Source of the DNA: Chloroflexota bacterium
Lineage (GTDB): Bacteria; Chloroflexota; UBA11872; VXOZ01
DNA length: 64,000 bases
Assembly (NCBI GenBank): GCA_026710945.1
Contig: JAPOQA010000041.1
Span: 1-64,000, forward strand
Reading direction: 5' to 3'
Positions 25,381 to 46,645 of this stretch are shown one piece after another (positions within the stretch are counted from its first letter, which is position 1; each line of letters opens with the position of its first letter). Below the pieces are notes generated by a model, which made no database searches, was not told where the DNA came from, and worked only from the letters and a program-made list of their open reading frames with translations. Made by a program: the position numbers and the translations under genes.

Positions 25381-25438
25381 TGTCATTCCGAATGGAGCGT
25401 AGCGGAGTGAAGAATTTTAAACGCTAGACCTATTGAAT
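25381..25438. repeat. Left part of the family B element interrupted by the transposon
   Basis: TGTCATTCCGAATGGAGCGT starts the left arm. The element resumes after the transposon (about 27894-27938, ...CTCTAGATTTCTCGCTGCGC...). The last 8 bases here, TATTGAAT, are the target-site duplicate. Confidence 0.85.
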
Positions 25439-25463
25439 GGGACTTATATACTATAGTTACCAA
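25439..25463. repeat. Left terminal inverted repeat
   Basis: All 25 bases are the exact reverse complement of 27861-27885. Confidence 0.97.
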
Positions 25464-25479
25464 AACACCCTAAAATCGC

Positions 25480-25509
25480 TTGACCGCTTGCTTGCCAATA
25501 CGATATAAT
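25480..25509 (+). promoter_or_regulatory. Transposon promoter
   Basis: TTGACC (25480-25485), 18 nt, TATAAT (25504-25509), a near-consensus sigma-70-type promoter just inside the left terminal repeat. It should drive all three transposon genes. A TAGTTACCA copy overlapping its start site repeats the inner end of the terminal repeat, so transposase binding could repress it. Confidence 0.75.
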
Positions 25510-25530
25510 AGTTACCATAGAGAGTGGGAA

Positions 25531-26460
25531 GTGGCAGAAAGCAAGGACATGGACAAGCATAACGACTGGAGCCTGTTTCAATTCTTCGCACGGTTCCCCA
25601 ATGATGAAACGGCACGCGAGCACATGGAGCGAATGCGCTGGCCCACTGGCCCGATTTGCCCGGACTGTGGCAGTGTTCGCTGGACGCACGCTAAGGGTCA
25701 TAAGACCATGCCGTACCGTTGCAAAGACTGCCGTAATTTCTTCTCGGTCAAGAAAGGCACAGTCTTTCAATCAGCCAATTTAGGCTACCAGAAGTGTCTA
25801 TTGGCAATTCACCTGCTGACTACTTCCAAGAAGGGTATCCCTTCCACTCTCTTCGCGGAGCGTCTTGATACCACACAGACAACCGCATGGCGACTGGCGC
25901 ACAAGATACGCGCCACGATGCAGCAAGGCAGCGATCCGCTCTCTGGTGACATTGAAGCTGATGAAACCTACTTGGGGGGCAAAGAGAAGAACAAGCACGC
26001 TTCCAAGCGCACGCATCAAGGCCGCGGCCCAGTTGGCAAGCAAGCAGTTTTGGGTGTCCGTGAGCGTGATGGTGCAGTTCGCGCCGCGCCGGTTGAAGTA
26101 GTCAATGCCGTTTCCGTACAGCACAACTTGATTGAAAACGTCTCTGCTGGCAGTGTGGTAAACACTGATGAAGCAAGAGTCTACCAGGGAATACCCTACG
26201 AGCATCGGACAGTCTCCCATAGCGCGGGGCAATACGTAAATGACATGGCGCATACCAACGGGATTGAATCGTTCTGGGCTTTGGTGAAGCGCGGGTATAT
26301 CGGCACCCATCACTGGTGGAGCATCAAGCACACCCAACGCTACGTTGATGAATTTGCCACGCGGTTCAATATGCGCAAGCTGGACTCGGAACGCAAGTTG
26401 AATCTTTGTCTTGCCGGAGCTGAGGGCATACGGCTTACCTGTAAGGAGCTAACCGCATGA
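25531..26460 (+). CDS. IS1595-family (ISXO2-like) transposase
   Basis: 309 residues from GTG 25531; ATG 25549 is the alternative. The longer frame from 25480 starts inside the promoter and is rejected. A zinc ribbon (C-PD-C at about 43-46 and C-KD-C at about 64-67) precedes the DDE/DDN core: DIEADETYLGGK, VNTDEARVYQG and HTNGIESFWALVKRG, typical of IS1595 (DDE_Tnp_IS1595/ISXO2). No frameshift or truncation is seen. The final ATGA overlaps the methyltransferase start, which is not the usual layout for a simple IS. Confidence 0.95.
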   Translation: MAESKDMDKHNDWSLFQFFARFPNDETAREHMERMRWPTGPICPDCGSVRWTHAKGHKTMPYRCKDCRNFFSVKKGTVFQSANLGYQKCLLAIHLLTTSKKGIPSTLFAERLDTTQTTAWRLAHKIRATMQQGSDPLSGDIEADETYLGGKEKNKHASKRTHQGRGPVGKQAVLGVRERDGAVRAAPVEVVNAVSVQHNLIENVSAGSVVNTDEARVYQGIPYEHRTVSHSAGQYVNDMAHTNGIESFWALVKRGYIGTHHWWSIKHTQRYVDEFATRFNMRKLDSERKLNLCLAGAEGIRLTCKELTA

Positions 26461-27212
26461 GCAAGCAAGCAGCAGTCATTCAACCCATCGAGGGCACGCC
26501 AGACGGGGTGCTGGCCAATGTGTTTTCGCATGAGCGACACATTGAAGCACCTGACATAGACCTACCAGAAACGCATGTGCTCAATGAACGTTTACAGATG
26601 GACGCTTTGACATTCTTGGGGGGGGTTCCAGATTCCAGCATTCCTGCTGCATTCCTAGACCCACAATATCGCGGCGTGCTGGACAAAATGAAATACGGCA
26701 ACGAGGGCAAAACCCGTGGCAAGGCTAGGGTGATGCTTCCCCAAATGAAAGAAGGGGATATCACGGCAATTGTGGGCGAAATTTCCAGAGTGCTTATACC
26801 GTCCGGCCACCTCTTTCTGTGGATGGATAAGTTTCACCTGTGCGAAGGATTTCACGACTGGCGACTCGGCACTTCCCTACAGTGCGTTGATCTTGTTGTA
26901 TGGAACAAAGAACGTTTGGCGATGGGATATCGGACGCGGCGCACGGCGGAGTATCTAGTAATTCTGCAAAAGACGCCACGCCGCGCAAAGGGTGTTTGGA
27001 CGGTCCATAACATACCTGACGTTTGGTCTGAGAGTATCCCGCGCAACGAGAACACCACGCATCGCAAGCCGGTTGACCTTCAAGGCGAACTCATAACTGC
27101 GGTAACTAATGCGTCTGATATCGTGCTTGATCCAGCAGCCGGATCATTCTCCGTTATGGACGCTGCCTTGCGCCGGGGCAGAAACTTCTTGGGCGCGGAC
27201 ATACGCGGCTGA
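26457..27212 (+). CDS. Transposon-borne DNA methyltransferase (N6_N4_Mtase type)
   Basis: 251 residues. AFLDPQY (66-71) is catalytic motif IV, a DPQY variant of DPPY, and VLDPAAGSFS (223-232) near the C-terminus is the SAM-binding motif I. IV before I is the beta-class order, giving m6A or m4C. NKERLAMGYRTRRTAEYLVILQK (about 150-172) lies between them with target recognition. It overlaps the transposase by 4 bp (ATGA) and the endonuclease by 1 bp (TGATG), so the three are coupled. It is closely similar along nearly its whole length to the chromosomal enzyme at 45899-46645. The recognition site is unknown. Confidence 0.9.
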   Translation: MSKQAAVIQPIEGTPDGVLANVFSHERHIEAPDIDLPETHVLNERLQMDALTFLGGVPDSSIPAAFLDPQYRGVLDKMKYGNEGKTRGKARVMLPQMKEGDITAIVGEISRVLIPSGHLFLWMDKFHLCEGFHDWRLGTSLQCVDLVVWNKERLAMGYRTRRTAEYLVILQKTPRRAKGVWTVHNIPDVWSESIPRNENTTHRKPVDLQGELITAVTNASDIVLDPAAGSFSVMDAALRRGRNFLGADIRG

Positions 27213-27880
27213 TGGTGCGCATTAGAGACAGCGAGGGCCGCAGCGAAGGATCTGGCTACGCCCGCATATTTGGCGACCCACAACTGGGCAAGTTGATTAG
27301 CCGTGTCCACGCAACCTCAATCCGTGCTGGCACCGAATTAGAGAAGATGGTGCTGGCGCGGGTTACACTCATTCCTGACTTGGACGAGTTCCTCTCCCAC
27401 GAAGTTATGGCTGATGGCGTTCACGTGGCTCCAAAGCGCATGGTGAAGGACTGCGAGACACTAAATTACGCGGGGGCGGAGCCTGACCTGCTCGTATTCA
27501 AGCGTCGTGAAGGAAAGCAATTGTGCCACGTGATTGAACTCAAAGACGGAGATGCTTTCGACACCAAGAAGTCGTCCGCAGAACGTCAATCACTGCATGG
27601 CTTCATCCAGCGCAATGCTTCACAACTGCCATATTTCGTGTACCCGCACTTTTGCTGCTTCAATCAAGATGATCGGCGCATCATATACGATGGCTTCAAG
27701 CGCAAAGTACCTATGTCGGAGTGCATGACAGGGCGGGAGTTCTGTGAGTTGCTAGAGATTGACTACGATGAAATCCGGCAAGAACGCGAGGCAGACCAAG
27801 CTGCAAACTTAGATGAATTCCTAGAGGATTTAGTCTCCATCCCCGCAGTCAAACAGCGGCTTGGTAACTATAGTATATAA
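27212..27880 (+). CDS. Putative type II restriction endonuclease, PD-(D/E)XK fold
   Basis: 222 residues. E90-P91-D92-LLVFKRREGKQLCHV and then E109-L-K111 form a PD-x16-ExK nuclease motif, with an upstream acidic helix (TELEKMV, about 41-47) as in many restriction enzymes. I do not recognise a named subfamily. Its partner is the methyltransferase immediately upstream, with a 1-bp overlap, which makes a cognate restriction pair the best reading. The C-terminal residues LGNYSI are encoded by the terminal inverted repeat, so the transposon end is part of the gene. There is no controller protein. Confidence 0.8.
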   Translation: MVRIRDSEGRSEGSGYARIFGDPQLGKLISRVHATSIRAGTELEKMVLARVTLIPDLDEFLSHEVMADGVHVAPKRMVKDCETLNYAGAEPDLLVFKRREGKQLCHVIELKDGDAFDTKKSSAERQSLHGFIQRNASQLPYFVYPHFCCFNQDDRRIIYDGFKRKVPMSECMTGREFCELLEIDYDEIRQEREADQAANLDEFLEDLVSIPAVKQRLGNYSI

Positions 27881-27885
27881 GTCCC
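27861..27885. repeat. Right terminal inverted repeat
   Basis: Perfect partner of 25439-25463. The last six codons of the endonuclease gene and its TAA stop (27878-27880) lie within it. Confidence 0.97.
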
Positions 27886-28160
27886 TATTGAATAGTCTGC
27901 GGCATGGACTCTAGATTTCTCGCTGCGCTCGAAATGACGGTCGGGGCTGCGCTCGAAATGACTGGTGAGACGCAGAATTCGGATGGGCTAGCCGTGTTGA
28001 GGACGGATTCGCGACGTACGAGACGTTAAGGACGGGATTACGGCGCACGAGACTGTGAGCACACCCAGGCATTATTCGTTGCTTGGCGACCAGGCAATGA
28101 AGTACGCACACCCTCATTTCTGTCATCGCTAGCCAGAACCACGCAAGAGAAACTCCTCTC
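27886..28160. repeat. Target duplicate and right half of the interrupted family B element
   Basis: TATTGAAT (27886-27893) followed by AGTCTGCGGCATGGACTCTAG and the arm to about 27938. A second partial arm (GGGCTGCGCTCGAAATGAC) follows at 27942-27961. No gene is seen in the rest. Confidence 0.8.
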
Positions 28161-45898: not shown

Positions 45899-46645
45899 AT
45901 GGCCGATCCCAAAACTGAATCCCAATCCGACGAACCGGAGTCCACAGTTCCATCAGTGTTCTCGCCGGTGCGCAGCTTGGTCATGCCGGCGTTGGAGCTT
46001 CCCGACCACTTCGCATACAACACCAGACTGCAGATGGATGGCTTGGAGTTTCTGGCCCATTTGCCGGAAGGCAAGTTTCCCGTCGCCTTTCTCGATCCCC
46101 AGTACCGCGGGCTGTTGGACAAGATGTCGTACGGCAATGAGGGTCGCAGCAGAAACCGGGGTCGTTCCGCGCTCACGCAAATGGATGCAGATAAAATCGC
46201 CGCCTTCGTTCGTGGCATCGACCGCGCCCTCATGCCCAGCGGGCACTTGTTCCTGTGGATGGATAAGTTTCACCTCTGCACGGGCTTTTCCCCCTGGCTC
46301 GCGGAGACGAAACTTGCGGTGGTGGATCTCGTTACGTGGGATAAAGGCCGTATCGGCATGGGCTACCGCACGCGTCGCAAGAGCGAACACGTGGTTGTCC
46401 TGCAAAAGACGCCGCGCCGGGCCAAGGGCGTCTGGAAGATTCACAACATCCCGGACGTGTGGGATGAGACGGTACCGCGTGACGCAGAGACCCACCGCAA
46501 GCCGGTTGAGTTGCAGGGGGCGCTCCTGGCAGCGGTGACCAATCCGGGAGACGTGGTGATCGATCCGGCAGCGGGCAGCTTTTCAGTGCTTGAAGCCTGC
46601 CGTGAGCGCAATCGCGTTTTCCTCGGTTGCGATATTGAAGGCTGA
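45899..46645 (+). CDS. Solitary DNA methyltransferase, paralogue of the transposon enzyme
   Basis: 248 residues. AFLDPQY (63-69) and VIDPAAGSFS (220-229) match motifs IV and I of the transposon-borne enzyme in the same beta-class order. Long stretches are identical, for example PSGHLFLWMDKFHLC (113-127), GMGYRTRR and QKTPRRAKGVW. By eye more than half of the aligned residues agree from residue 41 to the end; only the N-terminus differs. No endonuclease, terminal repeats or transposase adjoin it. It may protect sites cut by the transposon endonuclease or mark DNA for other purposes. Confidence 0.88.
   Translation: MADPKTESQSDEPESTVPSVFSPVRSLVMPALELPDHFAYNTRLQMDGLEFLAHLPEGKFPVAFLDPQYRGLLDKMSYGNEGRSRNRGRSALTQMDADKIAAFVRGIDRALMPSGHLFLWMDKFHLCTGFSPWLAETKLAVVDLVTWDKGRIGMGYRTRRKSEHVVVLQKTPRRAKGVWKIHNIPDVWDETVPRDAETHRKPVELQGALLAAVTNPGDVVIDPAAGSFSVLEACRERNRVFLGCDIEG

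Follow-up and report, generated by a model that had tools for sequence, protein, structure and literature searches.

The 64,000-nucleotide stretch of DNA from an uncultured Chloroflexota bacterium analysed here (the window) almost certainly contains a complete IS1595-type element that carries a restriction-modification (R-M) pair. This 2447-bp IS1595-family element (positions 25439-27885) encodes a transposase, a DNA methyltransferase (MTase) and a restriction endonuclease (REase), and because the latter two genes lie wholly inside one pair of IS ends it is a transporter IS (tIS). We favor, and regard as very likely, a model in which an IS1595 transporter IS with a complete Type II R-M system as its cargo inserted recently and in which the R-M system benefits the element that carries it.

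The left terminal inverted repeat, GGGACTTATATACTATAGTTACCAA (25439-25463, + strand), is complementary to the right end at 25 of 25 positions, and the right repeat (27861-27885, - strand) is accordingly a perfect 25-nt match to the left; a simple 4^-25 estimate, in which the 8-bp duplication is not yet counted, puts the chance of an inverted match this long and this exact within 2.4 kb at about 1e-9. Sequence comparison identified an exact direct repeat, TATTGAAT, that abuts both ends of the element externally, with its left copy at 25431-25438 and its right copy at 27886-27893 (neither assigned a strand). An 8-bp target-site duplication is a trait of the IS1595 family, and it is together with inverted repeats such as these that it marks membership; many related elements have similar ends and 8-bp duplications. 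The open reading frame list gives three uninterrupted genes, all on the + strand. An earlier note on this DNA had described a complete IS1595 element with perfect 25-bp ends, an 8-bp duplication and three intact genes. The ends and the duplication were both found again, and the genes are intact in the sense that all frames are open and the catalytic residues are invariant in their families.

The transposase gene (25531-26460, + strand; GTG start at 25531 or ATG at 25549) was identified by its domains. Its product matches the Pfam families DDE_Tnp_IS1595 (PF12762, E 6.5e-37) and Zn_ribbon_IS1595 (PF12760, E 8.3e-11), and scores 178 bits against a cut-off of 75 with the NCBIfam IS1595 transposase model NF033547 (E 1.8e-52). 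An ISXO2-like DDE domain with an N-terminal zinc ribbon is the hallmark of the family. The presumed D-D-E/K residues, assigned by motif as D144, D213, E246 and K253 in 309-aa numbering, fall in the motifs ADETYLGG, NTDEARVY and IESFWALVKRG. A motif scan placed a sigma-70-like promoter, TTGACC-18-TATAAT with 11 of 12 positions matching, at 25480-25509 (+ strand), promoter-like sites being no more frequent than chance (two found versus 2.0 expected in shuffles). Its -10 box and a partial internal copy of the inverted repeat (25503-25517) overlap, a hint that the transposase could regulate its own expression. No known structured RNA was found in the element.

At 52.7%, the GC content of the element is below that of the window (59.5%), and its GC3 is also lower than that of its neighbours, as expected of an import. 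In four of the five other genomes examined from the genus, the two genes that flank it sit side by side with nothing inserted between them; the fifth, 69% complete, gave no match for these flanking genes. The insertion is, to all appearances, recent. The element is the sole complete copy in its genome, and it is the only intact element known with exactly these three genes. Its insertion point lies within a dispersed intergenic repeat of the host genome (25384-25415 and 27903-27938); the left half of this repeat has 15 copies in the genome at three or fewer mismatches, and a reversed control pattern has none.

The cargo genes follow the transposase without a gap. The ATG of the MTase gene (26457-27212, + strand) overlaps the transposase stop codon (ATGA), the start of the REase gene (27212-27880, + strand) overlaps the MTase stop codon (TGATG), and the REase frame runs into the right inverted repeat, which contains its final codons and stop, such that the last residues of the enzyme are encoded by the transposon end. 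Judged by its domains, the MTase is a beta-class N6/N4 DNA methyltransferase (motif I DPAAGSFS, motif IV DPQY; Pfam N6_N4_Mtase, E 7.1e-13), and the DPQY that stands in place of the usual DPPY is invariant in 38 of 38 family members. PADLOC matched both proteins over nearly their full length, the one as a Type II MTase (E 1.7e-72) and the other as a Type II REase (E 4.5e-44). The family profile and a predicted model likewise identify the latter as a PD-(D/E)XK enzyme with E44, D92 and E109-x-K111, four residues that are invariant in all 44 sequences. The model has a mean pLDDT of 92.9 and places the PD-(D/E)XK motif in the expected fold; its best solved match is EcoO109I (Z 9.1 over 182 residues), and the next different protein reaches 7.1. 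The invariant residues and this EcoO109I-like predicted fold agree with the earlier assignment of a PD-(D/E)XK endonuclease. A Foldseek search with the model gave no match below E 0.001, the top rank of EcoO109I having come from a second structural aligner, and PDB sequence searches, including one with the REase family profile, returned no relative. A Pfam match of the REase to FGGY_C_2 was weak, fell below the cut-off and was rejected.

A four-sequence profile detected relatives of the REase at 50 loci from many phyla in bacterial genome contigs and at three loci in viral contigs. Single-sequence searches of the genome and viral contigs returned no relatives, and none was found in phages. The same MTase family adjoins the REase at nearly all of the 50 loci, usually directly upstream and either overlapping it or a few bases away. 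Across 40 genomes the MTase and REase distances co-vary (r = 0.82, Mantel p = 0.0005), though relatedness among the hosts can contribute to this correlation. A conserved, linked pair of separate MTase and REase genes is one mark of a Type II R-M system, and as judged from sequence these two belong to a genuine cognate Type II R-M family. That both halves of a restriction pair are present, as had been claimed, is thus borne out by the PADLOC matches, the conserved linkage and the co-divergence. We consider it likely that the pair is active.

A search for other copies of the element, proposed in the earlier note, was successful in part: the same R-M pair is immediately preceded by an IS1595 transposase remnant in one member of the Bacteroidota (L170) and one of the Gammaproteobacteria (L176), but there is no second complete copy in the genome. 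Both remnant transposases are decayed and lack recognisable ends, and because the MTase tree sets L170 apart from the MTase in the window, the remnants are not recent copies of one element. At L176 (3919-6773), an MTase-HNH fusion gene with an open frame comes immediately after the decayed IS1595 element and its R-M pair, which is of the same family as that in the window.

Related cargo is found across the class to which the host belongs. We surveyed 54 IS1595-type transposase loci in 41 genomes, about 30 of them with recognisable ends and 8-bp duplications. A methyltransferase profile matched 17 of the 53 loci other than our own (one, L080, doubtfully), and an MTase together with a nuclease is carried by about 15 of the 54 elements, window included. 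MTase-HNH fusions are present at L089, L097, L101, L110, L111 and L128 (L101 by sequence motif only), and MTase fusions with an Mrr-like C-terminal domain at L076, L077, L116, L118, L120, L121 and L124. Among the Mrr-like calls only L076 and L124 reach the Pfam cut-off; the others were made from weak Pfam matches or from the motif D-G-G-I-D-G ... E-V-K or a variant of it, the Pfam search having given no match for this domain in L118 and L120. Both ends and 8-bp duplications accompany L077, L097, L101, L116 and L118, each with an MTase and an HNH or Mrr-like nuclease in a single protein. At L084 (1-2612), where the left end is cut off by the contig edge, an IS1595 transposase gene precedes two overlapping genes, one for a D12 MTase and one for a NotI-like REase (PF12183, E 3.2e-40). 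L089, L110 and L121 are among the cargo elements that are frameshifted or truncated. Proteins of Streptomyces phages (H31-H50) are 37-45% identical to most of the L111 MTase-HNH cargo protein.

The cargo types are scattered on the transposase tree, which suggests repeated gain or loss. Outside the class but within the phylum, 33 IS1595 loci have none of this cargo and a single large, different methylase (L229), a contrast (17 of 53 versus 1 of 33) that is descriptive since the lineages are not independent. The L229 element is 4882 bp long, and between its ends an open frame of 960 codons encodes a methylase of a different type. In four plasmid records examined, relatives of the MTase-Mrr proteins have no adjoining IS1595 transposase; the association is therefore not automatic. 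Our survey suggests that R-M systems are regular cargo of these transposons. More speculatively, the IS1595 elements of the class could be a "restriction transposon" lineage that repeatedly acquires and exchanges unrelated protect-and-cut modules (the two-gene PD-(D/E)XK system, the D12 MTase with NotI-like REase, the MTase-HNH fusions and the MTase-Mrr fusions), which would aid its persistence or exclude competitors; this broader proposal is possible, and we put it forward tentatively.

A second MTase gene of the same family lies outside the element, about 18 kb away (45899-46645, + strand), and is solitary; its product is 59% identical in amino acid sequence to the transposon MTase. In each of the five other genus genomes examined, an MTase occupies this place, flanked by the same two genes; in four of the five it is of the resident type, 84-90% identical to the window copy with dN/dS of 0.06-0.11. 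The resident MTase is evidently under purifying selection. The locus in G149 (L133 4977-6547) encodes a divergent MTase (~70% to the others) and a REase, and behind the REase comes a 28-aa tail matching the last residues of the resident-type MTase at 86% identity, suggesting that an incoming R-M pair entered there by homologous replacement. The idea that the REase was lost in five genus genomes was rejected, as the tail and the divergent MTase fit replacement better.

Three further readings of the element and its cargo have to be weighed against the one we favor, and a fourth concerns the assembly itself. The assembly is a draft of 70 contigs, in which a transposon contig could have been joined to host DNA by mistake, yet the 8-bp duplication is exact, the host genes on both sides are in the order found in four relatives and the contig is 102 kb long, all of which makes a chimera extremely improbable. 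Alternatively, a single chance event could have placed an R-M operon between IS1595 ends without the element gaining anything from it. Such neutral passenger capture would be in keeping with the many unrelated cargo genes on IS1595 elements of the class and with the single intact copy of this combination; however, it does not readily account for the recurrence of MTase and nuclease cargo in several unrelated architectures on about 15 of 54 elements, for the remnants with the same R-M pair in two other phyla, or for overlapping genes and a REase that ends within the terminal repeat, and we consider it unlikely.

The remaining readings turn on addiction, which the earlier note had proposed for this transposon. 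If the R-M pair were self-serving addiction cargo, residual REase would kill element-free cells and so stabilise the element, as R-M systems of one MTase and one REase do on plasmids (PMC3874152, PMC11324026), and both genes are indeed intact and adjacent. Chromosomal transposons, however, are lost through deletion or replacement rather than plasmid-like segregation, and the same-family resident MTase, maintained by purifying selection, would probably protect the cell. There is precedent in Dcm and EcoRII, where a solitary MTase of the same specificity attenuates killing upon R-M loss (PMC3874152). Addiction as the explanation for the cargo is therefore somewhat unlikely. Its logic would stand if the two MTases recognised different sites and did not interact, and with only 59% identity their specificity cannot be read from sequence here. 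Yet identity is uniform along the protein, the presumed target-recognition region (residues 150-200) included, at 66% versus 58-65% in the catalytic regions, and many residues of this region are invariant across the 38 family members. Different specificities thus seem decidedly unlikely, and from the uniform identity we infer that the resident MTase probably methylates the same sites as the transposon MTase. With a shared specificity, loss of the transposon would expose no unmethylated sites, and addiction is probably blunted in the present host by the conserved solitary MTase. We consider it very doubtful that addiction is effective in this host; in a naive host its chances would be much better, if still slightly short of even.

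In the model we favor, an IS1595 transporter IS with an R-M cargo that serves the element, the transposase, MTase and REase genes form one compact run that would probably be expressed as a single transcript from one promoter at the left end. The position of the MTase gene before the REase gene would favor protection ahead of cutting in a new host. The most likely benefit of the pair to the element would be restriction of incoming DNA that competes with it; where a host lacks a matching MTase, loss or replacement of the element would also be penalised. In the present host, the resident MTase probably cancels the lethal effect. That R-M systems pass from one genome to another is known, often without a clear vehicle; a minimal unit of 2.4 kb, with one transposase and both R-M genes within one pair of ends, represents a concrete and testable one. 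Should protect-and-cut modules prove to be regular cargo of related IS1595 elements, transposons would provide a constant source of new restriction specificities, and the conserved solitary MTase of the genus could be tested as protection against restriction-carrying transposons.

The earlier note could not confirm whether such an element had been described. The open literature we searched yielded no description of an IS1595 element that carries a whole R-M system, but the element is no isolated oddity, since R-M cargo recurs in the class. What appears new is the IS1595 element with a complete R-M pair; passengers on transporter IS, and R-M genes on transposons or flanked by IS copies, were already known. 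As the earlier note stated, passenger genes are established in the IS1595 family, in ISNha5, tISCpe8 and MTnSag1/tISSag10 (PMC11891212, PMC5704250). These elements share with ours an IS1595 DDE transposase and short inverted ends with the passengers inside, but their passengers are a transcription regulator (ISNha5) or resistance and mobilisation genes rather than a complete R-M pair. IS220 of the IS1380 family is similarly an insertion sequence with a methyltransferase gene (PMC11891212), although its transposase belongs to another family and a methyltransferase is the only passenger that the source names. Conjugative plasmids of Campylobacter carry the same R-M family in the same MTase-REase order, with REases 35-37% identical to that of the window, but there the pair is plasmid-borne and adjoins no transposase. 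EcoO109I, whose solved fold the REase model matches best, is 11% identical in sequence, and we do not claim a shared specificity. R-M genes have been reported on transposon-like units in Rhizobium leguminosarum (Rochepeau 1997) and for PluTI (Khan 2010) and PaeR7I (Takahashi 2011) (PMC3031569). As far as that source describes them, these systems lie between two IS copies or were mobilised by IS elements elsewhere, whereas in the window one transposase and both R-M genes share a single pair of ends.
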